From: a virus
Length of the DNA: 38,744 nt
Reading direction: 5' to 3' (one strand)
IMG/VR virus record: IMGVR_UViG_3300020183_000206
Span: 1-38,744 of that record
Both the position numbers and the translations under genes were made by a program. How positions within the stretch are numbered: position 1 is the stretch's first letter; each line of letters starts with the position of its first letter. Below are positions 1,298 through 24,300 of this stretch, piece by piece. The notes under the pieces are model-generated. The model was given only the letters and a program-made list of their open reading frames with translations, did not search any database and was not told the DNA's origin.

Positions 1298-1436
1298 TAA
1301 AATGAATCATAAATGTCTTTTTTAATGTAGCTGAGTGTTTTGAGTTCTTGATAATTATCGTGATTATTATGCGGTTGTGATACGAATTCGGATCAATTTG
1401 TGTCCTTTATGTACTCTCTGCGGTTGTGATCTTGTG

Positions 1437-1570
1437 CCTTATAAATGTGCTGAGACCTTGTGATCTTGTGCCTTATAAACCTTCGATCTTATGCTCTTTA
1501 TGTCCTTATAAATGTGCTGAGACCTTGTGATCTTTATGTCCTTATAAATGTGCTGAGACCTTGTGATCTT
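1437..1570 (+). repeat. 31-nt direct-repeat array, 3 perfect copies
   Basis: Perfect copies of a 31-nt unit lie at 1437-1467, 1504-1534 and 1540-1570. The unit starts CCTTATAAATGTGCTGAGAC and ends CTTGTGATCTT. A degenerate copy (CCTTATAAACCTTCGATCTT) sits at 1471-1490. The spacers are 36 nt (holding the degenerate copy) and 5 nt, so this is not CRISPR-like. Each unit carries TATAAATG, one base off the late-promoter box. Candidate roles are iterons, a protein-binding array or a recombination hot spot; none is demonstrated. Confidence 0.85.
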
Positions 1571-1588
1571 AGCCCGCAGGCTATCACA
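1562..1588 (+). other. Hairpin at the end of the repeat array
   Basis: TAGCC (1570-1574) pairs with GGCTA (1579-1583) around a CGCA loop. Below a 3-nt bulge, TGTGA (1562-1566) pairs with TCACA (1584-1588). The last 31-nt repeat supplies the 5' arm. No T-run follows, so a terminator is not favoured. Confidence 0.45.
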
Positions 1589-1661
1589 CAACCGCGAAAA
1601 TGTCAAGACCCCCGAGTATAACCGAATCCCCACAAAGTCCCTCAAAAACATAAGAACCGCT

Positions 1662-1669
1662 CATAAATA
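1662..1669 (+). promoter_or_regulatory. Late-promoter match CATAAATA
   Basis: CATAAATA fits the NATAAATA late consensus of T4-like cyanophages. It lies 12 nt upstream of a sigma70-type -35, which would allow both early and late expression of the gene at 1740. In AT-rich DNA such octamers also occur by chance. Confidence 0.4.
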
Positions 1670-1681
1670 CTCCCAACCCAC

Positions 1682-1710
1682 TTGACACAATCTCCCAGAG
1701 ATCTTATACT
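1682..1710 (+). promoter_or_regulatory. Strong sigma70-type promoter
   Basis: A perfect -35 TTGACA (1682-1687), a 17-nt spacer and -10 TATACT (1705-1710) lie 29 nt before the ATG at 1740. The -10 is followed by GGCCACA, shared almost exactly with the promoter at 1950-1978. Confidence 0.8.
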
Positions 1711-1739: not shown

Positions 1740-1907
1740 ATGTCAGTTTCTTATCTTCAAGCACAGAAAAAGAATGTGAGAGTAACACTGGATCTTTCAG
1801 TGTATAGTGATTTCGATGCCCGACAGATCGATTGGCGTAAGTTATTCGTACTTGATGGAGATGAGACCGTGGAGGCTTATGTGGAAGACCTAGATGTAGA
1901 CTGGTAA
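1740..1907 (+). CDS. Small early hypothetical protein, 55 aa
   Basis: Begins MSVSYLQAQKKNVRVTLDLS and ends YVEDLDVDW. The order is a basic N-terminus, a beta-like VRVTLDLSVY strand, a DFDARQIDWRKLF segment, and a strongly acidic tail. It starts about 20 nt after the expected start site of a near-consensus promoter, with no obvious Shine-Dalgarno, as is common in this cluster. From memory, similar short proteins with 'DFD.RQIDW.KLF' occur in other cyanophages without known function. Coding status is well supported; the role is unknown. Confidence 0.7.
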   Translation: MSVSYLQAQKKNVRVTLDLSVYSDFDARQIDWRKLFVLDGDETVEAYVEDLDVDW

Positions 1908-2956: not shown

Positions 2957-3097
2957 ATGGCGGCCAAGAAGAAATCTAATTGTTATGGATGGGGAATCTT
3001 CGGTGGCAAACACAAGAAGAACAAAAGTTGTGCCACAGGAATTTTTCGTACACCTGCTCAAAAGAAGGCATCTTCAAAGAGAAGAAAGAAGAAATGA
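2957..3097 (+). CDS. Small highly basic protein, 46 aa
   Basis: Starts MAAKKKSNCYGWGIFGGKHK, continues through a SCATGIFRTP segment and ends KASSKRRKKK. Lys and Arg make up over a third of the residues, and there are two cysteines. This suggests a nucleic-acid-binding or RNA-polymerase-associated peptide, by composition only. Its ATG lies 6 nt after a GGGA ribosome-binding motif. The stop TGA (3095-3097) overlaps the ATG of the next gene (3094), so the two are probably translationally coupled. No named family is recognised. Confidence 0.7.
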   Translation: MAAKKKSNCYGWGIFGGKHKKNKSCATGIFRTPAQKKASSKRRKKK

Positions 3098-3222
3098 GAA
3101 GACGGAGACCTTATTGGAACTTCTGGAAGGTTGTTCTTGCAGGATGGTTAATACGAAATCCACGACCGTTCTTTACGGCACTTGGATTTCTGATAGTGAT
3201 CCTATATAATGCGTTGAGTTAA
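3094..3222 (+). CDS. Small basic membrane protein, 42 aa
   Basis: I take the ATG at 3094, which overlaps the upstream stop as ATGA. Longer in-frame versions from 2980 would run through the upstream gene. The sequence starts MRRRRPYWNFWKVVLAGWLI, followed by RNPRPFFTALGFLIVILYN. An Arg-rich amino end precedes two short hydrophobic stretches separated by RNPRP, so it is a membrane hairpin or a single-pass peptide. Pairing with the basic peptide encoded just upstream suggests a joint function at the membrane, but this is inference. Confidence 0.7.
   Translation: MRRRRPYWNFWKVVLAGWLIRNPRPFFTALGFLIVILYNALS
3182..3210 (+). promoter_or_regulatory. Candidate promoter inside the upstream gene
   Basis: TTGGAT (3182-3187), 17 nt, then a perfect TATAAT (3205-3210). 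It would start transcription about 15 nt before the GTG at 3232. The -35 is weak. Confidence 0.45.
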
Positions 3223-3231
3223 AAAGACACA

Positions 3232-3417
3232 GTGGAAAAAATCTATCACATCTATGCAAAGAATACATGTCTAATGCACTCTCTTAAAGAAGAAGAATTT
3301 GATATTGCTTGGAGATCACTTACAAATATGGTTGGTATTATAAAAACCGATTATGATGTTGAGGATTTGTCTTATGAAGAACTCTTAATGAATAAAGAAT
3401 TGGAATCATCTTATTGA
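3232..3417 (+). CDS. Small conserved cyanophage-type protein, 61 aa
   Basis: Starts with GTG at 3232 (MEKIYHIYAKNTCLMHSLKE). I keep it because the YHIYAKN...SLKEEEFDIAW pattern resembles small cyanophage proteins of the 'YHLYFKNECL...LTEEEF' type that I recall, which begin at the same place. The body is acidic and the tail (EDLSYEELLMNKELESSY) is helical. A -10-like TATAAT lies 22 nt upstream, and its own stop overlaps the -35 of the next promoter. The function is unknown. Confidence 0.7.
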   Translation: MEKIYHIYAKNTCLMHSLKEEEFDIAWRSLTNMVGIIKTDYDVEDLSYEELLMNKELESSY

Positions 3418-3465: not shown

Positions 3466-4230
3466 ATGGCAAAAGGATTTACGGTTAAAGCAAAAGCACC
3501 TACTCCCAAAGAAGAGTGGGATTACGATGCAATTAAAGAAAGAATGAGAGGAAAGTCAATTGTCTTCTGTCTTCCTGGAAGAGGTTGTTCTTTTACATTT
3601 CTCAAGGCATTTGTACAATTGTGTTTTGATATGGTTCAGAATGGTATGGCCATTCAGATCTCTCAAGATTACTCTTCGATGGTAAACTTTGCACGTTGCA
3701 AATGTCTTGGTGCAAATGTTCTTCGTGGACCAAAGCAGATTCCTTGGGATGGTAAACTCACTTATGATTACCAACTGTGGATTGATAGTGACATTGTATT
3801 CAACACAGAAAAGTTCTGGCAACTCTGTGATCTTGCTCTGAATGAAGAAGGCAAAGATAAGGAGATCGTTGCTGGATGGTATGCCACAGAAGATGGGCAC
3901 ACGACTTCAGTGGCTCACTGGTTAGAAGAAGATGATTTCCGCCGCAATGGTGGTGTGATGAACCACGAAACTGTGGAGAGCATCTCAAAGCGTCGCAAAC
4001 CTTTCACAGTGGATTACACGGGATTTGGTTGGGTTCTCATTAAAAAGGGAGTCTTTGAGAATCTTGAGTATCCTTGGTTTGCTCCAAAGATGCAAGTCTT
4101 TGAGTCCGGTGCGGTTCAGGATATGTGTGGAGAGGATGTCTCCTTCTGTCTGGATGCAAAGGAAGCAGGATTTGAGATCTGGTGCGATCCTCGGATTCGC
4201 GTGGGGCACGAAAAAACTCGCGTAATCTAA
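3466..4230 (+). CDS. Glycosyltransferase, GT-A fold (family 2-like)
   Basis: 254 aa. An N-terminal Rossmann-like strand (KSIVFCLPGRGCSFTFLKAF, about 30-49) leads to a YDYQLWIDSDIVF segment (about 100-112) whose DSD is the DxD-type metal/nucleotide-sugar motif. A C-terminal GEDVSFCLDAKEAGFEIWCD block (about 223-242) resembles the 'ED..f..ra...G' acceptor/base region. This predicts a nucleotide-sugar-dependent transferase in the cytoplasm. Similar orphan glycosyltransferases are common in cyanophages. The substrate could be phage DNA, a virion protein or host surface glycan. It has its own strong promoter and overlaps the next start (TAATG). Confidence 0.8.
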   Translation: MAKGFTVKAKAPTPKEEWDYDAIKERMRGKSIVFCLPGRGCSFTFLKAFVQLCFDMVQNGMAIQISQDYSSMVNFARCKCLGANVLRGPKQIPWDGKLTYDYQLWIDSDIVFNTEKFWQLCDLALNEEGKDKEIVAGWYATEDGHTTSVAHWLEEDDFRRNGGVMNHETVESISKRRKPFTVDYTGFGWVLIKKGVFENLEYPWFAPKMQVFESGAVQDMCGEDVSFCLDAKEAGFEIWCDPRIRVGHEKTRVI

Positions 4231-5515: not shown

Positions 5516-5917
5516 ATGCCTGTAGAACGGGTAAGTAAGGGTTTTAAGGATCTTAGCATGTCATTTCAGATTAGCCCTCTGAATTATGACTTACTTGCGA
5601 TTAAAAATGAAACTGCAATTGCTCGTTCTCTCAGAAATCTTGTTCTTACACTTCCCGGCGAACGTTTTTTTAACGAAAATCTTGGTTCAAAAGTTAATAA
5701 ACTTCTTTTTGAGAATATTAATGACTTTTCTGCATCAGCAATTCGTGATGAAGTTAGAAATGTAATCGAAACATATGAACCAAGAGTCAATTTAATAAAT
5801 GTTATTGTAGCGCCAAATTATGATCAACTTGAATTCAATGTTACAATTGAATATGAAATTGTAGGAATTGATGTATTACCGCAGCAGTTATCATTTGCAC
5901 TACAACAAGCCCGATAA
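5516..5917 (+). CDS. 25: Baseplate wedge subunit gp25 (lysozyme-like fold)
   Basis: 133 aa, matching the length of T4 gp25 (132 aa). The GPW/gp25 domain spans about residues 20-125: IARSLRNLVLTLPGERFFNE and LGSKVNKLLFE form the family's 'tppGer.f.p.fG..l..llFe' signature, and IETYEPRV matches T4's 'IRNYEPRV'. In T4, gp25 joins the wedge to the sheath and helps start sheath assembly. The start MPVERVSKGFKDLS suits cyanophage versions. It has no Shine-Dalgarno and abuts gp6 with no spacer. Confidence 0.95.
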   Translation: MPVERVSKGFKDLSMSFQISPLNYDLLAIKNETAIARSLRNLVLTLPGERFFNENLGSKVNKLLFENINDFSASAIRDEVRNVIETYEPRVNLINVIVAPNYDQLEFNVTIEYEIVGIDVLPQQLSFALQQAR

Positions 5918-7828
5918 ATGACATTAGTTAATTTCACAAATTTAGATTTCGATCAAATTAAAAGTTCGATTACAGAATACCTAAGATCGAACTCAGAATT
6001 TACTGACTACGATTTCGAAGGATCTAATCTTTCGATGTTAATTGATGTTTTAGCATACAATACGTATATTACCTCATACAATGCCAATATGGTAAGTAAT
6101 GAGGTTTTTATTGATAGTGCCACTCTTAGAGAAAATGTAGTCTCGTTGGCACGTCAAATAGGATACGTTCCTAGATCAAAAAGATCTTCAACATCCACAA
6201 TTTCTTTTTCTGTTGATACTACTGACTTTGGAACAAGTCCTCTTACATTAACACTTAGAAAAGGAATCGTTTGCACCACAACACAATCTTTCGGTGCAGA
6301 AAGTTATTCATTTGCAATTCCAGATGATATTACTGTGCCAGTTGTTGATGGAATTGCATATTTCAATAATATCATGGTTTATGAGGGAACATTTTTAACC
6401 CAAAACTTTACCGTGGATGCTAATGATCCAAATCAAAAATTTATTTTACCAAATACAAATATTGATACTGCAACAATTCGTGTTCTAGTAAAAAATACGC
6501 AAGCAAGTTCAGTTACAAGAAAATTTCTTCTTGCAAATAATTTAATTGACGTAAAATCAAATTCAAAAGTTTTCTTTATTCAAGAAATCGAAGATCAAAG
6601 ATATGAACTGATTTTTGGAGATGATGTTTTTGGAAAAAAACTTGATAATTTAAATTATCTTGCTGTTTCATACATTGTCACAAATGGAAAGGACGCAAAT
6701 GGCGTATTTGCATTTAGATATAGTGGAACTCTTGTTGATAACAACGGAGCTCCTGTTGTAACTGGAATATCAGATGTTACGACAGAATCTCCAGCACAAA
6801 ATGGTGCAGATATTGAATCTGTGAATTCAATTAAAAAATATGCAACAAGAATTTATTCTTCTCAAAATCGTGCAGTAACAGCATCCGATTTTGAGGCAAT
6901 TGTCCCAACAATTTATTCTGGCACCGAATCAGTTTCTGCATTTGGTGGAGAGGAGTTAAGTCCTCCTCAATATGGAAAAGTTTTTATTGCAATTAAACCA
7001 ATTAATGGACAACTTCTTTCCCAAAAAATGAAAGAAGATATTAAAGGTGCATTGAAAAAGTATACAGTGGGTGGGATCATAACGGAAATAATTGATCTAA
7101 AATACTTGTATATCGAGTATGATTCAAAAGTATATTACAATAGCAATCTGAGCCAAAGTCCAGATTCATTAAAAACAAAAATATTAAATCATATTTACAC
7201 ATATTCTATTTCTTCCGAATTAAATCAATATGGAGCCAGATTTAAATATAGCAAATTTTTAAAGTTAATTGATGATAGTGATGTTGCAGTTACATCAAAT
7301 ATTACTAAAGTTAATATGCGTAGAGATGTTCAAGTTGCATTGGGTCAGTTTGCAGAATATGAAATTTGTTTTGGAAATCAATTTCATGTAAAAACTTTAA
7401 ACGGATATAACATTAAATCTTCAGGATTTAATGTTATTGGGTTTGCAGACACACTTTATCTTGGAGATTTACCAAATTCGGATGGAAAAACTGGAACAGT
7501 TTTCTTTTTTAAATTGACATCACCAACCCAACCAACAATTATTGTTTCTAATGCGGGAGTAATTGATTATGTAAAGGGAGAAATTAAATTAAATCCCGTC
7601 AATATTGTATCTACGGAAAAATCCACCTCAGGTGTTGCAATTATAAAAGTTTCTGCAATTCCTTATTCAAATGATATTATTGGATTACAGGATTTATATT
7701 TGCAAATAGATAGTAGTAGTAGTTCTTTAGATATGGTTTCTGATGATATTTCATCAGGTGCAAACATATCTGGTTCAACTTATACAGTAACATCAAGTTA
7801 CTCAAATGGTGCACTTGTAATTCAATAA
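5918..7828 (+). CDS. 6: Baseplate wedge subunit gp6
   Basis: 636 aa against 660 in T4 gp6. The N-terminal region (MTLVNFTNLDFDQIKSSITE, then LRSNSEFTDYDFEGSNLSML) and the conserved SSQNRAVTASDFEAIV motif (about 312-327) are baseplate-J/gp6 hallmarks. Gp6 dimers form the ring that links wedges around the tube and controls the hexagon-to-star change at infection. The ATG follows the gp25 stop directly, so the two are translated together. The C-terminal end after about residue 590 is Ser-rich and looks variable. Confidence 0.93.
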   Translation: MTLVNFTNLDFDQIKSSITEYLRSNSEFTDYDFEGSNLSMLIDVLAYNTYITSYNANMVSNEVFIDSATLRENVVSLARQIGYVPRSKRSSTSTISFSVDTTDFGTSPLTLTLRKGIVCTTTQSFGAESYSFAIPDDITVPVVDGIAYFNNIMVYEGTFLTQNFTVDANDPNQKFILPNTNIDTATIRVLVKNTQASSVTRKFLLANNLIDVKSNSKVFFIQEIEDQRYELIFGDDVFGKKLDNLNYLAVSYIVTNGKDANGVFAFRYSGTLVDNNGAPVVTGISDVTTESPAQNGADIESVNSIKKYATRIYSSQNRAVTASDFEAIVPTIYSGTESVSAFGGEELSPPQYGKVFIAIKPINGQLLSQKMKEDIKGALKKYTVGGIITEIIDLKYLYIEYDSKVYYNSNLSQSPDSLKTKILNHIYTYSISSELNQYGARFKYSKFLKLIDDSDVAVTSNITKVNMRRDVQVALGQFAEYEICFGNQFHVKTLNGYNIKSSGFNVIGFADTLYLGDLPNSDGKTGTVFFFKLTSPTQPTIIVSNAGVIDYVKGEIKLNPVNIVSTEKSTSGVAIIKVSAIPYSNDIIGLQDLYLQIDSSSSSLDMVSDDISSGANISGSTYTVTSSYSNGALVIQ

Positions 7829-7832
7829 AAAA

Positions 7833-10800
7833 ATGTCAGAAACAAGAATCTCAGTTAATTCAATTATTCAAGGACAACTTCCTTCATTTGTTAGAGAAGA
7901 ATATCCATTAGTATCAGAGTTTTTATCTCAATATTATACTTCTATTGAAAGTCAAAGTGGACCATCTGATATTATTCAAAATATTGACAAATATGTCAAT
8001 ATTGATAATCTAACAAATTTAGTCGATTCTACAATTCTTTCTGTCGGAATTACAACTTCTGCTACCACTATTTCGGTTGAATCTACATTGGGTTTTCCAG
8101 AGTCGTATGGATTAATTCAAATAGATTCGGAAATTATTACATATACTGGAAAAACATTAACGTCTTTTACTGGTTGCGTAAGAGGATTTAGTGGAATCAC
8201 CTCTTATCAAGATTCAACTACTGCTGATAAATTAGTTTTTTCAAGTTCTCAATCTGCAGCACATAATCAAAACACTAAGGTAACAAATTTAAGTATTCTT
8301 TTCTTAAAGGAATTTTATAAAAAAATTAAAAAACAAATTACACCTGGTTTTGAAGATAAAGAATTTTATTCTGGATTAAATGAGGCACTTTTTATTAAAC
8401 AATCAAGAGACTTTTATTCTTCAAAAGGAACAGATTCTTCGATTAAAATTTTGTTCCAAGCCTTGTATGGCACTGATGTTCAAGTCATAAGACCTAGAGA
8501 TTATTTAATTCAGGCTTCAGAGGCTAAACATGAAATTAGTAGAAATTTAGTAGTTGAAAAAATATCAGGTAACGTTGAAGATTTAACAAATATTACAATT
8601 TATCAGGATCAAACTGATTATATTAATTCTGCCAGCGCAGTGATTTCAAGTGTAGAAAGAATTCTTAGAGGTGGAAAGGATTATTATGTTTTGAGTATTG
8701 ATGAAAGTAAAGGAATAACAACTCCTGGCGTTATAAAAGGAACATTTACAGTTCATCCAAAAACTCAATTAATTGAAGACGTAGAAATAGGCGCAAACGT
8801 AATTACTGTTGATTCTACAGTAGGATTTCCCAATTCTGGAGAACTGGTTGTTGGTGATGCTCAAATAGTATCATATGAAGAAAAATCATTAACCCAATTT
8901 TTTGGTTGCTCTGGTATCATTACCCAATTGGATGCTAATAGTGCAGTCAGAGCAAATACTTATGCATATGGCGTAACACCAAAAGAAAAAGTTACATTTA
9001 GAATTACTGGTGTTTTATCAAAACTTAGTATTTTAAATCAAGTAGGACCTTATGAAAAAGATGATAAAATTTATATAAAAAATTTAGGATATGAGTCTCG
9101 GAATTTTGAAGAAAATAATTGGTTTTTTAATATACCAGTTACGTATAACGTCAAATCTTTAGATTTGATTGATATTGCCGATTACACATATCTTGTCACA
9201 CTGCATGATTCTCACTCTTTGTCTTTAGGAGATTCTGTAACATTTACTGCGTCCACTGGGTTAAAAAGAACTGGATTTGTAATTTCTTATGATACAGATA
9301 AAAGTTTTAAAGTCAGAGGTCAGGGACAATTAAATACATATCAAACATACACATTAACAAAAAATTTATTAAAAGTAAATTCTACAAATTATCCAAATCT
9401 TTCTAATTATACATCAAATGTTCAAAATGTTTATTTGGATTTGAAGGATTCATTTTATGTTGCTTCGCCATCAATTCCAACTTACTTAAATTTGCCGTTA
9501 AATGTCTCTGATAAATCTATAACATTTTCTGGAAGTTTTAGCGGAACTGATTTAAACATAGGCAATCATAAATTTTTTACGGGCGATTCGATCGTTTATA
9601 ATCCAACAGAATCTACCAACAATTTGGGAATTACCACTGGAGTTTATTTTGTAAAAAAAGTAGATGATACTACAATTAAAATTGCTAATAGTTTAGCAAA
9701 TATTAATGTTGGTCGATTTGTAAGTATAGCCTCAACTGCAATAACAAACAATACATTTATTCCTACAGAGTACACCTATACTGACTTTCAAACTCGCACT
9801 CTAGAACCACAAAAAATTATAAGAAAAATTTCAAAACCAGAAAAAACATTAACAAAACAACAGACCAGAACTGGCAATATTGGACTTTTTATTAATGGCG
9901 TTGAACTTTTAAATTATAAATCAAAAGATGTTATTTATTATGGTCCAATAGAAAAAGTTAATGTTCTTGATGGAGGAACAAACTATGATATTATTAATCC
10001 ACCAATTTTAAATATAACAGATCCTATTGGTTCCGGAGCATCTGTATATTGTTCTGTAAAGGGTGGATTAGAAAGAATAGACATTTTAGATCCTGGATTT
10101 GATTTTTTAAATACCCCAACTATTAAAATAACTGGTGGTAATGGTGTAAATGCATCAGCAAAAGTAAATTTAATTGAATTTGATCACTTCGTAACAGTTT
10201 TACCTTCAGCTGGAAGTGGTAAAATTAATTTAACTAATAATACAATTGGATTTACAACTTACCATAAATTTAGAAATAATGAAAAAGTAATATATGATAC
10301 TCAAAACGGAACTAGTGTTGGTGGATTAACAACAAATGCACAATACTTTGTCTCTGTACAAGACGCAACTACGATTAAACTTCACAATAATTTTGATGAT
10401 GTTTCATCCGGAATCAATACAGTTAATTTAACATCATATGGAGTTGGAACACACTTACTCAAGTCTGTTCAGAAAAAAAAGAAAATAGGTTCGATAACAA
10501 TCGAAAATTCTGGACAAAATTATCAAAATAAAAAAACAACCACAACTTCTGCAGGAATCAATACTGCATCCGACACAATTAACATTAAAAATCATGGATA
10601 TCATACTGGAGAAATTATATCATACACAACAAATGGTTCCTCAATTGGCGGATTAAATCCAGGATCATATTATGTTACAAAAGTAAATGATGATAGTTTT
10701 AAGTTATCCATAATTTCTCCAGGAAATATTGGAATAAGCACTGGAAATAATGATTTTTATTTTAAAACTAAACAATATGTAAATTTAACATCAACTGGAA

Positions 10801-13800
10801 GTGGAACTCATATTTTTAACTATCCTCAAATTACAACAACTGTAGATGGAATAATTGGAGTCAGTACTTTTGCTGGACAAGATTTTACTGCAAAAATTCA
10901 ACCAATTTTTAGAGGAAAAATTGATTCAGTATTCATCGAAAATGGAGGAAATTCTTTTGGATCTGAAGGAATATTAAATTACAATGTCCAACCAAGATTT
11001 ACAATATTGGAAGGATCTGGGGCCCAAGTAACGCCAATAGTTTCAAATGGAAAAATTCAAAAAGTTGTTGTCAATAATTCGGGATCTGGGTATATTTCAG
11101 TTCCAGATTTAATAATCAATCAAACCGGTTATGGGTCTGGGTCTGGAGCTATTCTTGTTCCAGTAATTGTAAATGGATCTCTAACAGAAGTTCGTGTTAT
11201 TAATGGTGGAGTTGGATACGGAAACGATATAACACTAACAGTTGTTGCTGGAGGAATAAATTCCAAATTTGAAGCATCAATTAAAACGTGGCAAGTTAAT
11301 TTGGTTGAAAGAGAAATAATTGCAAATCAAATCACAAGTGATGATGGATTTTTATCTAAGTCTTTTTATGAAAATTTTGGTCTTGAATATAATCATGCTT
11401 ATGCCCCAAGAAAACTAAGAAATTCTGTCGTTTCTCAAAATAATAACGAAGATTTAAAAATATTTAATGGAATTGAATTTGTTTCTACAGACCATTCTCC
11501 CATTATTGGGTGGTCATATGATGGACATCCAATATATGGTCCATATGGGTATTCAAACCCCACAGGAGGATCCATTAAGGCACTTAAGAGTGGATATACT
11601 TTATTATTAAATCCTAATAGACCAAGTATTGCATTATATCCTTCAGGATTTTTTGTCGAAGATTATGTATATGATTCAAATGGGGATCTTGATGAGCATA
11701 ATGGAAGATTTTGCATTACGCCAGAATATCCAAATGGGGTTTATGCATATTTCTGCACCATAGATACTACATCCATTCAAAATCAGGGACCATTTAAAAA
11801 TTACTTTAAACCAAGTTTTCCTTATGCTATAGGAAATTTTTATAAATCAAACCCCATTAATTTTAATTTCTTAAAAACTTCAAATCAAGATGAAATTAAT
11901 ATTAATGAAACTGGATGGATGAGAAATGTTACTCCATATAACTTAACAAAAACGAATAGTTTTTATAATTATCTTTCTCTTCCAAATAAAATTAAAGAAA
12001 GTGTTTCAACTATAAATTTAACATCCGCTGGTAGTGTAGATTCTATTGGTATTAAAACTGGAGGTCAAAATTATAAAGTTGGAGATAAACTAGTTTTTGA
12101 TAATACTAATACCGGGGGGCAAGGATTATCTGCAGAAGTTTCTTTGGTTAAAGGTAAACCAATTTCTCAAATAAGCATAGCGAGTTCTTCAATTGATTAT
12201 GTTGAATTTTCAACCAGTAATGCTGCGTTCAATTTTGTTGGATTTTCAAGTTCTCCTCATAACTTTGTCAATAATGATGTAATTACAGTAACAGGAAAAT
12301 ATGACTATAAAAAAACAAATCCAATCGTAGTAACCACAAATACTCTTGTAACGATATCAAGCATTGCATCGACTACAAATACTGGATTAGTAACTTACTT
12401 TTCAGTTACTGGAAACTTAAACTTCCCAAATATAAGGGAAAACGACGTATACCAAATTAATAATGAACAGGTAAAAATTCTTAATATAGATCCACAGTCT
12501 TCAAGAATTAGAGTTCTTAGAAATATTAACAACGTTTCCGGATCAACTTCATATTCATCTGGAATTGCTCTCACAGAATCGACTAGAAAGTTTCAAATTT
12601 CATTTGGAATTTCTACTTCATATAACCTAAAAGTAAACAAAGAGTTATACTTTGACCCCAAAGAATCTGTTGGTATAGGAACCATTGCAGGAGTTGGAAT
12701 TAGTTCAGAACTATTCTTTAGTAATCCCGGTGTTGGTATAACTCAAATTGCAATTCCAACTAAAGCAATATATCTTCCTAACCACCAACTTGAAACCGGA
12801 ACTAGATTGATTTATAATGCAAATGGCGGAACTTCAATTTCAATATCAACAAATGGTATAAATTCATATCAATTATCTGATAATTCTGTTGTATATGCAG
12901 CTAAAATATCTGATGATTTAGTTGGTATTGCTACCGTTAAAGTTGGTCTTGGATCAACTGGGGTTTTTGTTGGTCTTGGTACAATTTCTGGCGATACTTT
13001 ATATTTCCATGCTTCTGGAATAGGAAATACCCATAGTTTTAAAACAGATTATGATAACATATTTGTTGGATCAGTAAATCAAAATATTGTAACAGTATCA
13101 ACTGCTGCAACTCATGGACTAGTGAGTGGCAACAGTATTACTTTAAACGCAAAACCAGGAATTACAACAACTGCCTTTGTTAAGTATAATGATTTTAACA
13201 GGAGAATGATCATTAATCCTGTTTCATTTGTTGCTGGAAATGTCAATATTGCTGATAATACTATTGAGTTGCAAAATCATGGGTTTTACGTTGGACAAAA
13301 AGTAATTCACAACTCTACTTCTCCTTGTGGTGGTTTAACTAATGAATCCATATATTATGTTGTTCCTATTAGTGAAAATTTATTTAAACTTTCAAATTCG
13401 TACTATGATGCTACATTAAATATTCCTGTTGAAATTGTAAATATAACTTCACAATCATTTGGAACAATTTCTCCAATAAATCCACCAATTCAAGCAATTA
13501 GAGATACTACTCTAAAATTCGATTTATCAGATTCTTCATTAGCTTTTGTCAAATTTGGAAATCCATATCCGGCTTTTGAATTAAATTTTTATGAAGATGC
13601 GGAATTTAAAAATAAATTCAATACTTCACAAAACACTACTACCTTTGAAGTTTCAAAATTTGGAAGACCTGGAGTAGACGCCGATGCATATGTTAGTGTA
13701 AAAATAAATGATTTTATTCCAAATGTCTTATACTATAAGTTAGTACCAATTGATCTTGAAAATAATTCTTTGGTTAAATCTACCATAATTAACGATAATG

Positions 13801-16800
13801 AAACTTTAAATAATAGCAAAATTACAAAAGTTGATAGTGCTTATAGTGGGATATACTTAGTTACAGTTGGAATAGACACATCAAGTTTTACTTTCAATGC
13901 AATCAATAATCCCGAAAAACTTTCATATTTTCCATCTGAAGGGACTTTTGAATATTATACATCCTCACCATCGGCGTTTGGTGAAATACATCAGATTAAC
14001 GTAACAACAAATGGTACAAATTATTTGTCTTATCCAAGAATATCTAATATTAATTCTGGATTGGGAACAAATGCAATTTTAGAAATAAACAGCCAATCGA
14101 TTGGTATTACTCAAAAAACTAAATTAGATGATATTGGATTTGATTACTATTCTGATTTGTCAATAAGACCATTAGCAAATCTTGCACAAATCTTTAGGGT
14201 TTCAAATTCATCTTCAATTAAATCTATTGGAATAACTTCAGCAGGAAGAAATTATACAATTGCTCCAAATTTAATTCTTTTTGATGAATTTACAAAGAAA
14301 CCAATCAAAGATGTTGAATTACGTTATAATCTAGGAGATTCTTTTGTTACAATTGTTAAAAATACAAAATCAATTAGCAATTCAATCGCATCAATTATAC
14401 CAATCAATAATGTAAATGGTTCTGGCATTACAACTATTTCTTTTAACAATTCTACTAAAGAAGTAACGGTTGGTCTTGCAAAAAGTTTTAGTGATATATC
14501 TGATTTCCCATTTGTTCCCGGAGCAAAGTTTTTAGTTGAAAATGTAAATGTTGGAATTGGTTCGACGGGATACGGATATAATTCTAAAAATTACGATTAT
14601 CAATTATTTACAGTAAAAGATTCAACACCAAACATTGGTGGAATTGGAGCTACAGTTGTTTATAGTTTAGAGGATTATTTGCCCTTCGGTAAAACTCCTG
14701 GAGTATGGCAAACTAATGATTCTTCATCGGCAAGGATCATTGCTCAGTCACATTTTCCAATTTTTGATATCAAATATGAAAAAAATAAGTACTTTAAGGA
14801 TGAAGAAGTTATTCCAGATGGAAAAGTTGAAAGTTGGGATCCTATCAATAATATTTTAAGAATATCATCAAATAGAGTTTATGAAATTGGAGAAAAAATT
14901 AAGACATTCTCTGATGCCGAAACTACAATTGTTGAAATTATTAATAATGAGGCAATTTATGACGTAAAAGAATCTGAAGTTGTTAAAAAAACTTGGCAAA
15001 ATAATGTTGGATTTTTAAATGAAAACTTACAAAAAATTACGGATAATGATTATTATCAATATTTTTCATATTCATTAAAATCAAATGTAACTTATGACAA
15101 GTGGGATGAAGTCACGGACAGCTTAATCCATACTGTTGGATTTAAGAAATTTGGTGACTTAGTTATTGAAAATTCTTCCAGTCAAATAGGAATATCAACA
15201 ACACAAAATGATACTGATGTAACATTAACGGTTGATTTGCAAAATGAAATAGATTTAGATTGTTACTATGATTTTGATTTAGTTTCGGAAAGTAGTTTTG
15301 AAATTGATGATGAGTTTAAATCTGATAAAATATCATTCTCAAGTAGAATACTTTCTGATTATACAGAATCAATCGGCAATAGGGTTGTTATTCTTGATGA
15401 TATCAGTGATTTGTTTAATAGCAATCCTAGACCCAATCCATTTACTGTGGTAGATAGATTTTTGTTGTCATCTACAAGATCCAAAAAATATTTTTATTCC
15501 ATACTAGACACATTTTATAATACAGAACGACAAGTTGGATTAATTGGATTTATCCATGATAATGAAATTGGTTATTTGAATCATTATGGTGTTGTTTATA
15601 CTTTAAATGATTTAGGAACATTTGATTTTAATATTTTTGGCACTGAAGGAAACCTAAGATTTTTCCCATACAAATTCAAAATTAATAACTATGATTTAAG
15701 TTTTGTTTCATTTGATATTGAAGACTCAATTTCATCAATTGGTTCTACAGCACTAGGAAGCTGTGTAAGTATTGCAGCTTCAACAGTAACATTAGGAGCA
15801 GGAACATCAACAGCAAGTACTATTGTTGGAATAGCATCAACATACAGAAGTTCTAAAGTTTTAGTTAAAATTGGAGCTGTAGATGATTCTTACTTTGAAT
15901 TTAATGAACTTACTGTTATTCACGATGGTTCTCAAGTAAGTCTTTTGGAGTATTTTCCATTAGCAACAGATTCTCAACTTGTATTTGGATCTGTTGGTCT
16001 TGGAACATATATTCCTTCATTTTCTGGATCTGACATTAACATTGATTTTAAACCTAATTCGGAGTTAGGTGTTGGACATACAGTAACCACAATGAGAATT
16101 TCTGTTGGAGACACATCTTCAACTGGAATTGGCACAATTATTTTAAAAGACACTCAACTGGATTCTACAATCGTTTCAATATCTTCTTCATCTACACCAA
16201 CTGCAAATGTAGTGTCTAGTTTCTCTAATAATGATTACGTTGGAGCTTATTATTTTGCAAGTGTAGAGGATACAACAAATAATCAATATGAAGTTTCGGA
16301 ATTAGTATGTGTAACTGATGGAGTAACTCCAGGTTTGTCTGAATTTGCCGTTGTTAGCACCGGTTCTTCTTTAGGTAAGTTCACTGTCTCAGGAGCAGGT
16401 TCCAATACAAATTTAAATTATACACCAGATGCAAATATTGATGTTCAAGTAAGAATTTATAGACAAACAATCAGTCATGCTCACGATGCTTCCTTGATCG
16501 ATGAATTAGATTTGGGCAATACTAATATCGTAAGTTCATTTGGATCTTATGAGGGAACTGAAAATGACATTAAGAAAAAATTTGATTTGACTCATAATGG
16601 ATCATTGGTTTTTGAAAAAGTTTTTGATGGATCAAATTTGGGTATAGTTAGTACTAGTGATAATACAATCAGAATTCCATCAAATTATTTTGTAACAGGT
16701 GAGGAAGTTACATACACTTATCCAAATTCTACAATAAACACGGCAAATGCTATTGGCATTGCAACAACATCTATTGCTGGAATAGGAACAACAGATAAAC

Positions 16801-19799
16801 TGCCAACTACAGTTTATATTGTGAAACTAAATGAATTGGATGTTAGAGTTTCTGCATCGGCTTCCGATGCGCTAAAATCAATTCCCATTGTGTTGGAACT
16901 TGAAAACGTTGGCATTGGAACTTTACATAAATTTATATCTAAAAATCAAAACTCAAAACTTCTCATAAGTGTTGATAATGAAATTTTATCTCCAGTTGTT
17001 GGAAATGGAGTCACTGAATCGTTAGTATCTTCCCTTGGATATTATGATAGCACAGTGAGTTTGTCCGGAATTACAAGCATAACAGCAGGTTCTTTAATAA
17101 AAATTAATGATGAAATTATGCTTATTAATTCATCATCTCTTCTTTCAAATTCAATTATGGTAAATAGGGGATGGGCTGGAACAGGAATATCATCACATAC
17201 ATCTGGATCTTTAGTAAGAAAATTAGTTGGCGATTATAACATAACTGATAGTGCCATTAATTTTATTACTCCACCATTTGGACAAATACCATTTACAAAT
17301 CCAAATGATAGGGGCGATGAGAAAGATTATATTGGATTAGAAGTTTCATCATCATTCAATGGCAGAATGTTTATGAAATCGGGAAATCCTGATGGGTCTT
17401 TAGAACCTTATCATAACAATTATATTTTTGATGAAATTGTTGCTACAGAATTTGACAGTGTAGAAAATGACTTTACTCTTACGCAAGACTTAACAAATAT
17501 TTCTGGATTCTCGACATCAAATGCAATTGTTTTAATCAATAACGTTTTTCAATTACCAGCAAGATCTGGAATTTTTGTCAATATAAATGGAAACTATAGT
17601 TTAAATGAATCTTTAGGAATTACAACAATTTCGTTTGTTGAAAATGGTGCAACTTTAAATGAAGATCCAAATTTATCATCTCTTCCTAGAGGTGGAATAA
17701 TTGTTTCTGTTGGATCAACAGAAGGATTTGGATATCAACCTTTAGTATCCGCTGGAGGAACGGCTGTTATTTCTGGATTAGGAACTATTCAATCAATTAG
17801 TATTGGAAATAGTGGATCTGGATATCGTTCTGGAATACAAACTGTCGTAAATGTTGGCGTAGCTACAACAAGTTTAGGGACACCAAATATAGAATTTATT
17901 GGAACTGCTGCAATTAGTGGAGGGCATATTGTAAGTGTAGCAATTACAAATCCTGGAGTGGGATACACGTCAACAAATCCACCATTGGTTATTTTTGATG
18001 ATCCACTATCATATAGCAATATTCCTTTGATTTATAGCTCAAGTTCTCCATCTGGAATCGGAACAAAAGCAACTGTCGATATTGTAGTTGGTCAAGGATC
18101 AAGTATTATATCATTTGAAATTAAAAATTATGGGTATTCATACAATAGAGGTGATATTTTAACAGTTGCCATTGGAGGAACTATTGGAATTCCAACGGAT
18201 ACTTCATTGACATTTGAAGAATTTAATCTTACAGTAAATGATACGTATTTTGATAGATTTTCTGGATGGTCAATTGGAGATTTACAAGTATTGGATCCTT
18301 TAGATTCTTTATTTGATGGAAATAAAAGGGTATTTCCATTAGAAATTGATAGTCAAAAATTTTCTATAAAAGCAAGATCAGGATCTTTAATTGATGTTAA
18401 AGCTAACTTACTTGTTTTTATAAATGATATATTACAAATTCCTGGTGAAGGATATATTTTTGATGGTGGAAGTTTAATTCAATTCCCCGAAGCACCCAAA
18501 CCAGGAGATACTTCAAAAATCTTATTCTATAAAGGAAATGGAGATGTTGATACTCAAATCATTGATATTTTAGAGACGGTAAAGGAAGGCGATACTTTAC
18601 AAATATACGAATCGTCATTTAAAGAATCTGAAGATGAAAGATTAGTTAAAGATATTCTTTCAGTTAATGAAGTACTTACAAATACTTATAATGGACCAGG
18701 ACTTACAACAGATTCAACTTTAACTAGACCAGTAATCTGGTGTAAGCAAAGAAATGACATGTTCATCGATGAAACATATGTTTCAAAAGATAGAATTCAT
18801 TATGAACCACTGATTTATCCAACTACAAATATTATTCAAAATGTTGGAACTTCAAGCACGGTTATTTGGGTACAAAATATAAAAACTTTCTTTGACAACA
18901 ATTCTGAATATTATCCAAACGAATCGCCACAAAGAAAAATTACCATTTTATCCCAAGATACATTATCTGGAGCTGCGGCCACTGCTATTGTTTCAGCTGC
19001 AGGAACAATTCAATCAATTATAGTTAATGATGGTGGAGTTGGTTATACAACAAATCCAATAGTGGTAATTTCAAATCCAATTGGATTGGGAATAACCTAC
19101 GCGGCAGAGGCAACATCTCTAATCAGTGGCAATACAGTTTCTTCAATTAGCATAACATCTCCTGGAAGTGGATATACAAATACAAATCCACCATCAGTTT
19201 TAATAGAAAATCCAAGACCAACTTATGAAACAATATCTAATGTAACTTATGATGGGGATTTTGGTGTTATAACAGGTATTGCCACAACTTCTATTGTTGG
19301 TGTTGCCACAACTGGACTTGTTTTTGATTTCTTTATACCTGAAGATTCATTCTTAAGAAATGCTGGAATTAATAGCGTAGGTGCGGCCGCGACAGGAATT
19401 AGTGGCATTCAAACTGGAGATTATTTTACGATAACAAATTCAAATGTTGGAAGTGGCGTAACATCACTCTCATCAAGCAATAGTGGTATTATTGGAATTG
19501 GCACATCCTTTATTGATAATGTTTATCGAGTTGCACAAGTTTCTATCGCACAAACAAGTGCTGCTGGAATTGCTTTAACTTATGTAACTAAGGTTGTTGT
19601 AAGTGTTGAAAGCACAGATGGTATAAGTGGATTTGGATTTAGTAGTTTCTATGGCGAATATAGTTGGGGCAAAATTTCTAATGGTACACGATTAAATCCA
19701 AAATCTTTTGTTGCATATACTGATGGTTCTGCTGGTATTTCTTCATCCCCAATTGTTCAAAGATATAACCCCCTTAAATATGAGAATTACTATACATAA
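7833..19799 (+). CDS. 7: Giant gp7-like baseplate wedge protein with YHYH domain
   Basis: 3988 aa against 1032 in T4 gp7. Residues 1-235 hold the T4 gp7 C-terminal core: QLPSFVREEYPLVSEFLSQY near the start and DFYSSKGTDSSIKILFQALY (193-212), which aligns with T4 'DFYSTKGIEASYKFLFKVLY'. The remainder is a beta-rich chain: two early ITV..GFP modules (about 78-127, 322-362) and one at about 3072-3128; at least six HG..TG..I.Y..GG..YYV modules; about 14 GSGY-type repeats (for example near 713, 753, 1082, 1123, 3326, 3373, 3732, 3776); and a YHYH domain (GWSYDGHPIYGPYGY at 1226-1240). A DSLFDG...VFINDILQIPGEGY region near 3490-3550 is typical of cyanophage wedge giants. Its place between gp6 and gp8 fits gp7. 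It probably forms a large peripheral baseplate arm on the virion. No frameshift or stop interrupts it. Confidence 0.85.
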   Translation: MSETRISVNSIIQGQLPSFVREEYPLVSEFLSQYYTSIESQSGPSDIIQNIDKYVNIDNLTNLVDSTILSVGITTSATTISVESTLGFPESYGLIQIDSEIITYTGKTLTSFTGCVRGFSGITSYQDSTTADKLVFSSSQSAAHNQNTKVTNLSILFLKEFYKKIKKQITPGFEDKEFYSGLNEALFIKQSRDFYSSKGTDSSIKILFQALYGTDVQVIRPRDYLIQASEAKHEISRNLVVEKISGNVEDLTNITIYQDQTDYINSASAVISSVERILRGGKDYYVLSIDESKGITTPGVIKGTFTVHPKTQLIEDVEIGANVITVDSTVGFPNSGELVVGDAQIVSYEEKSLTQFFGCSGIITQLDANSAVRANTYAYGVTPKEKVTFRITGVLSKLSILNQVGPYEKDDKIYIKNLGYESRNFEENNWFFNIPVTYNVKSLDLIDIADYTYLVTLHDSHSLSLGDSVTFTASTGLKRTGFVISYDTDKSFKVRGQGQLNTYQTYTLTKNLLKVNSTNYPNLSNYTSNVQNVYLDLKDSFYVASPSIPTYLNLPLNVSDKSITFSGSFSGTDLNIGNHKFFTGDSIVYNPTESTNNLGITTGVYFVKKVDDTTIKIANSLANINVGRFVSIASTAITNNTFIPTEYTYTDFQTRTLEPQKIIRKISKPEKTLTKQQTRTGNIGLFINGVELLNYKSKDVIYYGPIEKVNVLDGGTNYDIINPPILNITDPIGSGASVYCSVKGGLERIDILDPGFDFLNTPTIKITGGNGVNASAKVNLIEFDHFVTVLPSAGSGKINLTNNTIGFTTYHKFRNNEKVIYDTQNGTSVGGLTTNAQYFVSVQDATTIKLHNNFDDVSSGINTVNLTSYGVGTHLLKSVQKKKKIGSITIENSGQNYQNKKTTTTSAGINTASDTINIKNHGYHTGEIISYTTNGSSIGGLNPGSYYVTKVNDDSFKLSIISPGNIGISTGNNDFYFKTKQYVNLTSTGSGTHIFNYPQITTTVDGIIGVSTFAGQDFTAKIQPIFRGKIDSVFIENGGNSFGSEGILNYNVQPRFTILEGSGAQVTPIVSNGKIQKVVVNNSGSGYISVPDLIINQTGYGSGSGAILVPVIVNGSLTEVRVINGGVGYGNDITLTVVAGGINSKFEASIKTWQVNLVEREIIANQITSDDGFLSKSFYENFGLEYNHAYAPRKLRNSVVSQNNNEDLKIFNGIEFVSTDHSPIIGWSYDGHPIYGPYGYSNPTGGSIKALKSGYTLLLNPNRPSIALYPSGFFVEDYVYDSNGDLDEHNGRFCITPEYPNGVYAYFCTIDTTSIQNQGPFKNYFKPSFPYAIGNFYKSNPINFNFLKTSNQDEININETGWMRNVTPYNLTKTNSFYNYLSLPNKIKESVSTINLTSAGSVDSIGIKTGGQNYKVGDKLVFDNTNTGGQGLSAEVSLVKGKPISQISIASSSIDYVEFSTSNAAFNFVGFSSSPHNFVNNDVITVTGKYDYKKTNPIVVTTNTLVTISSIASTTNTGLVTYFSVTGNLNFPNIRENDVYQINNEQVKILNIDPQSSRIRVLRNINNVSGSTSYSSGIALTESTRKFQISFGISTSYNLKVNKELYFDPKESVGIGTIAGVGISSELFFSNPGVGITQIAIPTKAIYLPNHQLETGTRLIYNANGGTSISISTNGINSYQLSDNSVVYAAKISDDLVGIATVKVGLGSTGVFVGLGTISGDTLYFHASGIGNTHSFKTDYDNIFVGSVNQNIVTVSTAATHGLVSGNSITLNAKPGITTTAFVKYNDFNRRMIINPVSFVAGNVNIADNTIELQNHGFYVGQKVIHNSTSPCGGLTNESIYYVVPISENLFKLSNSYYDATLNIPVEIVNITSQSFGTISPINPPIQAIRDTTLKFDLSDSSLAFVKFGNPYPAFELNFYEDAEFKNKFNTSQNTTTFEVSKFGRPGVDADAYVSVKINDFIPNVLYYKLVPIDLENNSLVKSTIINDNETLNNSKITKVDSAYSGIYLVTVGIDTSSFTFNAINNPEKLSYFPSEGTFEYYTSSPSAFGEIHQINVTTNGTNYLSYPRISNINSGLGTNAILEINSQSIGITQKTKLDDIGFDYYSDLSIRPLANLAQIFRVSNSSSIKSIGITSAGRNYTIAPNLILFDEFTKKPIKDVELRYNLGDSFVTIVKNTKSISNSIASIIPINNVNGSGITTISFNNSTKEVTVGLAKSFSDISDFPFVPGAKFLVENVNVGIGSTGYGYNSKNYDYQLFTVKDSTPNIGGIGATVVYSLEDYLPFGKTPGVWQTNDSSSARIIAQSHFPIFDIKYEKNKYFKDEEVIPDGKVESWDPINNILRISSNRVYEIGEKIKTFSDAETTIVEIINNEAIYDVKESEVVKKTWQNNVGFLNENLQKITDNDYYQYFSYSLKSNVTYDKWDEVTDSLIHTVGFKKFGDLVIENSSSQIGISTTQNDTDVTLTVDLQNEIDLDCYYDFDLVSESSFEIDDEFKSDKISFSSRILSDYTESIGNRVVILDDISDLFNSNPRPNPFTVVDRFLLSSTRSKKYFYSILDTFYNTERQVGLIGFIHDNEIGYLNHYGVVYTLNDLGTFDFNIFGTEGNLRFFPYKFKINNYDLSFVSFDIEDSISSIGSTALGSCVSIAASTVTLGAGTSTASTIVGIASTYRSSKVLVKIGAVDDSYFEFNELTVIHDGSQVSLLEYFPLATDSQLVFGSVGLGTYIPSFSGSDINIDFKPNSELGVGHTVTTMRISVGDTSSTGIGTIILKDTQLDSTIVSISSSSTPTANVVSSFSNNDYVGAYYFASVEDTTNNQYEVSELVCVTDGVTPGLSEFAVVSTGSSLGKFTVSGAGSNTNLNYTPDANIDVQVRIYRQTISHAHDASLIDELDLGNTNIVSSFGSYEGTENDIKKKFDLTHNGSLVFEKVFDGSNLGIVSTSDNTIRIPSNYFVTGEEVTYTYPNSTINTANAIGIATTSIAGIGTTDKLPTTVYIVKLNELDVRVSASASDALKSIPIVLELENVGIGTLHKFISKNQNSKLLISVDNEILSPVVGNGVTESLVSSLGYYDSTVSLSGITSITAGSLIKINDEIMLINSSSLLSNSIMVNRGWAGTGISSHTSGSLVRKLVGDYNITDSAINFITPPFGQIPFTNPNDRGDEKDYIGLEVSSSFNGRMFMKSGNPDGSLEPYHNNYIFDEIVATEFDSVENDFTLTQDLTNISGFSTSNAIVLINNVFQLPARSGIFVNINGNYSLNESLGITTISFVENGATLNEDPNLSSLPRGGIIVSVGSTEGFGYQPLVSAGGTAVISGLGTIQSISIGNSGSGYRSGIQTVVNVGVATTSLGTPNIEFIGTAAISGGHIVSVAITNPGVGYTSTNPPLVIFDDPLSYSNIPLIYSSSSPSGIGTKATVDIVVGQGSSIISFEIKNYGYSYNRGDILTVAIGGTIGIPTDTSLTFEEFNLTVNDTYFDRFSGWSIGDLQVLDPLDSLFDGNKRVFPLEIDSQKFSIKARSGSLIDVKANLLVFINDILQIPGEGYIFDGGSLIQFPEAPKPGDTSKILFYKGNGDVDTQIIDILETVKEGDTLQIYESSFKESEDERLVKDILSVNEVLTNTYNGPGLTTDSTLTRPVIWCKQRNDMFIDETYVSKDRIHYEPLIYPTTNIIQNVGTSSTVIWVQNIKTFFDNNSEYYPNESPQRKITILSQDTLSGAAATAIVSAAGTIQSIIVNDGGVGYTTNPIVVISNPIGLGITYAAEATSLISGNTVSSISITSPGSGYTNTNPPSVLIENPRPTYETISNVTYDGDFGVITGIATTSIVGVATTGLVFDFFIPEDSFLRNAGINSVGAAATGISGIQTGDYFTITNSNVGSGVTSLSSSNSGIIGIGTSFIDNVYRVAQVSIAQTSAAGIALTYVTKVVVSVESTDGISGFGFSSFYGEYSWGKISNGTRLNPKSFVAYTDGSAGISSSPIVQRYNPLKYENYYT

Positions 19800-21379: not shown

Positions 21380-24300
21380 ATGCCTCAACAAACTAACTTC
21401 AACGTTTCTCCATATTTTGATGATTTTGACGAGAACAAGAGTTATCACAAGGTTTTGTTTAAACCTGGTACTCCTTTGCAAGCCAGAGAATTAACTACAT
21501 TACAGTCAATTCTTCAAAATCAAATTGAGAAATTTGGAAGTCATGTTTTTAAAGAGGGATCTCCAGTATTAGATGGGCAACTTGGAAATGATATTGTTTT
21601 TCCGGCAATTCAAGTAGAATCCCAATATAATGGATTGCCAATTTCTTTATATTTTGACAATTTAATCGATAAAAAAATTAAAGGACAAACTAGCGGTGTT
21701 GTTGCAATTGTTAGGTATACATTATCAAATATACAATCAGAAAGAGGTGTTCATACATTATACCTACAATACATTTCAAATGGTGTAGGTGATTTTAATT
21801 CTCAAAATTTTTTTGATGGAGAAACTTTACTTGCAGAAGAAACAATAACATATGGTAATGGATTTACAATTCCTCAAGGACAAGGAATTTGTAATGCCAT
21901 TGCAACCAATGCATCTACTGCAGGTTCATCAATATCTATTAAAGAAGGAATTTTCTTTGTTAGAGGCATCTTTGCAAAAGCACAAGAACAAAGAATTATT
22001 TTAGATCAATATGGAATTACTCCAACTTTTAAAGTTGGATTTACTGTTATTGAAAGAATTGTTACTGCAGATGAAGACGAATCTTTATATGATAACGCTC
22101 AAGGATTTTCAAATTATGCAGCTCCAGGATCTGATAGATTTCAACTAGAGTTAAAGTTAGATAAAAGATCTATAAATGAATCCAATCTCGAAAACTTTAT
22201 TACATTATATTCTATTTTTGATGGTATTCCACAATTTAAGGTAACAAAAACTCAATACAATGTTATTCGTGACGAACTAGCAAGAAGAACTTCAGATCAA
22301 TCTGGAGATTTTTACGTAAAACCATTCGCAATTATTGCTAGAGATACTTTAAATGATAGATTGGTCAATACTACGGGTATTTACTATGATAATCAGATAA
22401 CAGTTGATGGAAATACTCCATCAGATGATTTAATGACGTTTGAAATAAGTTCTGGAAAAGCATACGTCGATGGATATGAAATAGAATCTGTAAATCAGCA
22501 ATATTTGGATGTAGAAAAACCAAGAACTACTCAAACTCTAGAAAATCAATCAATTTCATTTAATGCAGGAACTCAGTTTTTAATTAATAATATTCATGGT
22601 ATTCCATCTGTTGGAGTTGGAACTACTGCATTTGTAAGTTTGATGGATTCAAGATTGGGTTCTGATAAAGGTGTTGCAGCAGGAACAACTATTGGATATG
22701 CAAGAATTTATGATTTTATACCTTCAACCGGTTATGTTGATGATTCTAGTCAGTTAAATTTGAGATTATTTGACATACAAACTTTTACAAAGCTTACTTT
22801 AACAAATAATATTACGCAATCAACTCCAGCCTATATTCAAGGTAAAAAAAGTGGAGCAGCTGCATATTTAAAGGACGGTGTAACTGGAATACAAACATTA
22901 ACTTTGTATAATGTTTATGGTCAGTTTATACCGAATGAACCCATTATTATTAATGGAATTGATAATGGTAGATTGATCAAATCAATTGTCGATTATGACA
23001 TTTCAAATGTAAAATCAATTCATTCAACAAAAGTCGGTGTTTCGACTTTTAATGCAGACATGATTTTGGGCAATCAAATTAATATTGCTCCTTCTGGAAC
23101 AACTTTTAAAATTACAGCAGAATCAGCCGGTGTTAGTACAGTTTCTGCTGGATTGGGAACTAATTTTGTAAATGTCATTTCTAATGGTGATATTATTAGA
23201 TATGGAAATCCGGATCAAGGGCAACTTGCAATTTACAATAAAGTATCAAACGTAAGTACTGGTGGAACGAATTTTACACTGTCTGCAGTTCCAAGTGTAA
23301 CAAACGTTTGTGTTGGATCATTACCCACTTCCGAAATTTTAGTTACAGATTTAAAACTCATCAGAGGATCAATCGGATCTCCAGATTCTGCATTAATTAC
23401 AGAACTTAGTAGAAACAACGTCAAAACATTTAATATATCAAATACTTCTATTTCTCAAAGAAGAATTTTTCAAAATCAATCTTTTGCAGCAAATTCTATC
23501 ACTCTTACAGTAACTGAAGATGATATTATTTTTGAAGCATTTGATGAGGATAGATTTATAATTTCATATTCGGATGGTTTAATTGAACCATTAAATCCAT
23601 CACAATATAGTTTAGATGTTACTGGAAAAATTTTAACGTTTAATGGATTATTAAAGACTAGTGGAACAGCTGATGTAATTGTAACTGTCAAGAATACAAA
23701 ACCAAATTCTAAAATTAAAAACTTTAATAGTGTTGGTTCTTTAATTGTAAATCGTTCAAAATATGCATCATCAGGGATTGGAACTACAACATTAAATGAT
23801 GGTTTAACTTATAGTCAAATTTACGGACTTAGAGTTCAGGACGAAGAAATTTCTCTCAATGTTCCAGATGTTGTTAGAGTTGTTGGCGTTTTTGAATCGA
23901 AAACAACTGATGATCCACAATTGCCAAAAATAAAATTAAGTGGATTTACTGGGCCAACAATTAATAATCAGGATTTTATAGTAGGAGAACATATTCTTGG
24001 TTCAACATCAGGAGCCATAGCTCTTGTTGTTAATAGAGTTGATACTGATAGTTTAGAATACGTATATTTAAATTCATCAACTTTTGCAGTTGGAGAAACT
24101 ATTACTGGTAAAGAATCTGGAACAAATGCAACTATTTTATTAATTACGATATCTGATCAAAATGTATCCAATAAATTTGGTTTTGACGATGGACAAAGAG
24201 ATTCTTTCTACGATTATTCTAGACTTGTAAGAAATCAAAACGCAGAAGAACCAAAAGGAAAGTTGAAAATTGTCTATCAATATTATACAATAGATGCGCT

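Follow-up and report, generated by a model that had tools for sequence, protein, structure and literature searches.

Gene content and layout of the locus

The window, by which we mean the whole stretch of 38,744 nucleotides that was analysed, is a 38.7 kb fragment of a T4-like cyanophage (Kyanoviridae) taken from an IMG/VR virus record, and its closest nucleotide matches are myoviruses of Synechococcus and Prochlorococcus. The window carries genes of the baseplate and neck (gp25, gp6, gp8, head closure and sheath stabilizer), every one of them on the plus strand. Two very large open frames occupy the baseplate/tail region, at 7833-19799 (3988 aa) and 21380-29254 (2624 aa). At the other end of the window, a gene fragment (1-180) has a diverged duplicate in the gene at 407-604 (stretch 421-604), and both start with CTACATTGAGTTTGATTTTGATGG.

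The subject of this report is a repeat array in the gene-free stretch at 1298-1739, with gp25 located 3.9 kb to its right. That the array lies outside genes, as the initial annotation had it, is borne out, since between 1300 and 1739 the open frames are short, built from the repeats, and include no credible gene. The array should be considered together with its flanks, from about 1300 to 1740, as one unit, which we call the module. The features of the module and its landmarks are as follows (cassette types are described below).

1301-1344, no strand: AT-rich, easily melted element, a candidate DNA unwinding element; family consensus approximately AATNAATTAAAAATGTATTTAAAAAATATATGAGTGTTTT
1348-1369, no strand: first dyad of a type c cassette (TTGATAATTATCGTGATTATTA); unique in the window, at the place of the type a or b cassette of relatives
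1370-1381, plus strand: first GCGGTTGTGA element; not conserved, present in the window alone among 76 loci compared
1378-1395, no strand: second dyad of the type c cassette (TGATACGAATTCGGATCA, palindromic); the only such site in the window at 3 or fewer mismatches
1419-1430, plus strand: second GCGGTTGTGA element; likewise not conserved and confined to the window among the 76 loci
1437-1467, plus strand: iteron copy 1, 31 nt, exact CCTTATAAATGTGCTGAGACCTTGTGATCTT
1471-1501, plus strand: degenerate iteron copy, sharing its first 9 bases with the 31-mer and lying in the 34-bp register
1504-1534, plus strand: iteron copy 2, 31 nt, exact CCTTATAAATGTGCTGAGACCTTGTGATCTT
1540-1570, plus strand: iteron copy 3, 31 nt, exact CCTTATAAATGTGCTGAGACCTTGTGATCTT; abuts the core and is the sole copy in the nearest relatives
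1536-1622, minus strand: conserved core, once per genome (nhmmer profile and sequence model)
1578-1606, minus strand: predicted extended -10 sigma70-like leftward promoter; TTGACA at 1606-1601, 17 bp spacing, TGATAGCCT, -10 at 1583-1578
1663-1669, plus strand: ATAAATA, late-promoter-like by its likeness to NATAAATA, of the rightward gene
1682-1710, plus strand: sigma70-like rightward promoter TTGACA-17-TATACT, 11 of 12 consensus matches
1740-1907, plus strand: small conserved gene to the right of the module, 55 aa, MSVSYLQAQKK..., with 41 related loci in viral contigs
5516-7828, plus strand: gp25 and gp6, baseplate wedge genes by PHROGs matches; the positional landmark in common with T4 oriE

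NATAAATA is the late promoter of cyanophages (PMC2984593). Late promoters within the repeats themselves (TTATAAATG) were also considered and rejected, because the match is incomplete and other lineages carry CTTAGAAA or TTTAAATC at that place. Further to the right, at 2815-2960, there is a second noncoding element, CCCTAACCTACAGAGGTGACAAWTCGA, with an invariant part at 2889-2916. It recurs nearly letter for letter in about 90 relatives, 0.4-1.3 kb to the right of the core, and is present in a single copy in the complete genomes that have it (S-SM2, SynMITS9220M01, Bellamy, S-SCSM1 and P-TIM68). A search of Rfam with this element gave no match.

The repeat array and its counterparts in relatives

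The three perfect copies and one degenerate copy described in the initial annotation were found where it had placed them (starts at 1437, 1504, 1540 and 1471). Compared with itself without gaps, the region gives a best match of 41 nt at an offset of 36, as opposed to about 8 nt in dinucleotide shuffles. At 3 or fewer mismatches, the core 19-mer of the repeat occurs 3 times in the window, against 0.01 occurrences expected from shuffles, and it is found nowhere else in the 38.7 kb record. An exact 22-mer searched in viral contigs gave no match, and a scan with a 12-bp motif was too unspecific for genome-wide iteron counts. In the nearest relatives (loci L108, L112 and L113), the flanks are as in the window and the 31-mer is present once. 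Hence, the array of the window arose by recent expansion of one conserved unit.

Repeats spaced at 31-36 bp occupy the same place in S-CAM9 and in loci L025, L032, L033, L046, L056, L061, L069, L088 and L118. Their unit sequences differ between lineages, and most of them keep the frame TTTAAAT...CTTGTGATCTT. Direct repetition reached p ≤ 0.05 in 25 of 67 regions, as opposed to 8 of 65 control stretches. Such a constant spacing of units whose sequence changes points to function rather than chance duplication. Going leftward from the core, the general layout is a series of 1-6 iterons with a spacing of 31-36 bp, then a dyad cassette that can be swapped and finally the AT-rich element. The array is the variable part of this conserved module.

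Three GCGGTTGTG-type elements, two direct and one inverted, had been reported to frame the array. They are indeed present at the positions given (TGCGGTTGTGAT at 1370-1381 and 1419-1430, CACAACCGC at 1587-1595). The suggestion that these arms bring the whole array into one stem fared less well, as the left arms were found in none of the 75 relatives compared. Being unique to the window, they cannot make a conserved stem, and the right arm is the spacer sequence of the leftward promoter. Folding of 1365-1605 gives z = -2.6, but this value rests on the non-conserved arms. The alignment of the core contains no consensus base pairs or RNA structure, and the Rfam search returned no match. A small regulatory RNA, in the sense of a structured RNA, was rejected on these grounds.

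A conserved core with a predicted leftward promoter

The loci of relatives were gathered by two separate protein queries, with the gene at 3466 and with the small gene at 1740. An nhmmer profile of the core detected it in the window and in 86 other loci, with a single hit in each and in one orientation; the IMG/VR loci are fragments, and some of the 86 are near-identical to one another. A sequence model of the core matched 11 of 19 complete genomes once each, the exception being one record, which has a further, partial match at its far end. The module occurs in viruses of both marine and freshwater cyanobacteria, with one copy per genome. In a blastn search, the region matched unannotated intergenic cyanomyovirus DNA weakly, the matches falling at the array's right end.

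When 36 sequences were aligned on the minus strand, the core displayed the pattern TTGAC(A)-N14-TGnTAnnnT, in which TTGAC and TGnTAnnnT are invariant or nearly so and the spacing is 17 bp (about 18 bp in a few sequences). On this comparative evidence, the core is predicted to be a leftward extended -10 sigma70-like promoter. Its -10 hexamer is TATAAT in loci L124 and L008, TAGAAT in S-SM2 and TAGCCT in the window, where it is too poor for the promoter to be listed by a plain consensus scan. About 8 bases past the -10 hexamer, at the predicted transcription start, there is an invariant AGAT block, mostly within AAGATCAC or AAGATCGC. In the window, the leftward transcript would be expected to start near 1570 (AAGATCAC), and the 31-nt repeats copy the initial portion of this predicted transcript.

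The sequence next to the core exists in two alleles. Loci L119 (221-305) and L120 (401-483) are nearly identical, and their leaders beside the core read CCTTGTGATCT and CTTATAGCGATCT, respectively. The tree shows at least 8 switches between these two alleles, a pattern suggesting that alleles are exchanged exactly where the transcript is predicted to begin. A separate peculiarity is seen to the right of the core in S-BM3 (L014), where positions 3065-3300 are dense in CTAGTCTAGAT-type palindromes found in none of the other genomes examined.

Among the 19 complete genomes, the core was not recognised in S-PM2, Syn9, P-SSM2, S-CRM01, S-RSM4, P-SSM4, S-SM1 and S-ShM2. Four of them (S-PM2, Syn9, S-SM1 and S-ShM2) have clusters of DnaA boxes together with a core shortened by about 12 bp and devoid of a good -10 hexamer, so in these genomes the promoter may be dispensable or may have been replaced.

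Exchangeable dyad cassettes, DnaA boxes and the AT-rich element

To the left of the iterons lies one of three alternative cassettes, whose classes we defined by simple patterns. Type a consists of DnaA boxes, TTTTCCACA or TGTGGAAAA; type b is TTCTCAATAA...TTATTGAGAA; and type c, which the window carries, is TGATAATTAT... with TGATACGAATTCGTATCA. The TGATACGAATTCGGATCA dyad of the window is also found in loci L008, L025, L088, L108 and others. Types a and b never occur together in one locus, and the cassette type switches at least 5 times on the right-flank tree. A Fur-like reading of the dyads of types b and c was not adopted, as we found no support for it in the open-licence literature that was searched.

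The established DnaA box of cyanobacteria is TTTTCCACA (PMC4674748). Two exact copies of it within 100 bp of each other were found in 6 of the 17 complete genomes that contain the box, and all six pairs lie at the element or at its syntenic counterpart, whereas random placement gives 0.12 genomes on average and 3 at most (20,000 trials). All six clusters are 2-8 kb upstream of gp25-gp6, which is also the position of the module in relatives; in the window it is 4.3 kb upstream of gp6. Overall, about a third of the distinct relatives have a DnaA-box cluster at the module. The array region of the window contains no DnaA box.

In many relatives, the AT-rich element is the weakest 40 bp of the locus in terms of predicted duplex stability, and in S-BM3, P-TIM68, SynMITS9220M01 and S-SM2 only 5-15 places per genome are equally weak or weaker. 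The property is strong in most relatives and less extreme in S-CAM9, S-ShM2 and the window, whose element is moderately weak (0.7% of windows are weaker).

Interpretation of the module

With moderate confidence, we read the module with its array as a probable replication origin that in cyanomyoviruses corresponds to T4 oriE. This reading is the simplest one because it covers the promoter, the phased repeats, the DnaA boxes, the weak duplex and the position upstream of gp6 together. Of the four candidates named in the initial annotation, origin iterons are favoured, as the phased arrays lie between an AT-rich element and a promoter and often near DnaA boxes. The placement of the array beside a variable gene block also stands, since relatives vary strongly in what they have upstream of gp25; the single stem and the structured small RNA are the parts of that interpretation that fell away. 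A change of GC skew had been proposed as a further sign of an origin, but in six complete genomes the skew does not reverse at the element. T4 oriA and oriC are likewise situated outside skew shifts (PMC3016281). Also weighing against an origin are the absence of DnaA boxes and of genes resembling repEA or repEB in the window, the moderate weakness of its AT-rich element, its poor -10 hexamer, and the complete genomes without a recognised core.

We infer that the module is transcribed, bound by protein, melted and primed, and that it thereby acts as an origin. The conserved leftward promoter would be used by the RNA polymerase of the host at an early stage of infection, and transcription would cross the iterons toward the AT-rich element, opposite in direction to the late genes. 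Opening of the AT-rich element would be assisted by a protein that occupies the dyad cassette and the phased repeats; in the lineages with DnaA boxes, this protein would be the host DnaA. The fork would then be started either by the nascent RNA or by a primosome loaded on the opened DNA.

The main alternative, which we consider unlikely, is that the module serves gene control, providing the promoter and leader for a transcript made early in the leftward direction. The promoter would drive leftward genes where such genes exist; elsewhere the transcript would be an antisense or leader RNA directed at the small left-hand genes. The repeats would be duplicated leader or operator sequence. The promoter is indeed the best-conserved part of the module, the repeats do copy the predicted transcript start, and in the Kanaloavirus genomes and S-BM3 a minus-strand gene is found directly downstream of the promoter. 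However, the left neighbours in the window and in most relatives are plus-strand genes that differ between lineages, which leaves the transcript with no common target and makes a purely gene-driving role of the promoter unlikely. Furthermore, neither a consensus structure nor an Rfam match was found for it, and gene control leaves the DnaA-box clusters and the weak AT-rich element unexplained.

It is quite unlikely that the module merely binds or titrates host regulators (DnaA in some lineages and other dyad-binding proteins elsewhere) and thereby regulates genes of the phage or the host without initiating replication. The cassettes do resemble binding sites and are interchangeable, as the mutual exclusion of types a and b and the repeated type changes on the tree attest. 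Nevertheless, the few boxes per genome are too few for strong titration, which in addition needs no fixed position, AT-rich element or conserved promoter. A recombination hot spot, where slippage and gene exchange within a variable region would yield functionless repeats as a by-product, appears very unlikely. The single repeat copy of the nearest relatives fits such an origin of the array, and exchange is evidently frequent, given the repeated changes of cassettes and leader alleles (5 and 8, respectively). Yet the 31-36 bp spacing recurs in many lineages with different units, and the core is conserved while its surroundings vary.

Returning to the replication origin, we suggest tentatively, as a possibility on which we would not insist, that cyanomyoviruses possess an origin of modular design, in which the promoter and the AT-rich element are fixed, the number of iterons varies, and the initiator cassette is exchangeable, consisting of host DnaA boxes or of one of two unrelated dyads depending on the lineage and being swapped by recombination. 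If so, some T4-like phages would depend directly on the replication initiator of their host. The module is conserved, occupies the position of oriE and has phased iterons, frequently accompanied by host DnaA boxes; it provides exact sequences to test and, as an origin, would tie replication of the phage to the host initiator. Its surroundings are the variable region that precedes gp25, so an origin there could also bear on local gene exchange.

Comparison with known replication origins

T4 oriE maps to position 79355, has minus-strand direction and lies 1.7 kb upstream of gene 6, and its primer RNA is the complement of the gene 5 transcript (T4 record). Like the module, it is upstream of gene 6 in the baseplate cluster, has an early-type promoter on the minus strand, antisense to the late genes (that of the module being predicted by comparison), and contains evenly spaced direct repeats (T4 record; PMC3016281), although the repeat unit is about 34 bp in the module and 12 nt in T4 oriE. 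What the iterons of T4 oriE do is still undefined (PMC3016281). The two also differ in that the module is intergenic, whereas T4 oriE is inside gene 5, and in that many relatives have DnaA boxes at the module; we claim no sequence similarity between them. No genes resembling repEA or repEB were found in the window on the minus strand downstream of the promoter, and for this reason we refer to the module as a counterpart of T4 oriE and not as a member of the same type.

T4 oriF and oriG, which are R-loop origins, resemble the module in having a promoter that reads toward an AT-rich, easily melted element (PMC3016281). Unlike them, the module has no MotA middle promoter, and its AT-rich element is 50-250 bp away, with the repeats in between. 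Cyanomyoviruses lack motA (PMC2984593).

The cyanobacterial oriC shares with the modules of many relatives the clusters of TTTTCCACA DnaA boxes beside AT-rich DNA (PMC4674748). The modules, however, usually have 1-4 boxes, with none in the window, and they have no dnaN or dnaA neighbour. For T4-like cyanophages, the portions of the open-licence literature consulted mention no mapped replication origin and only one prediction, that of a single theta origin for cyanophage Syn9 (cited in PMC2984593). In Syn9, paired DnaA boxes are located at the site of the module.
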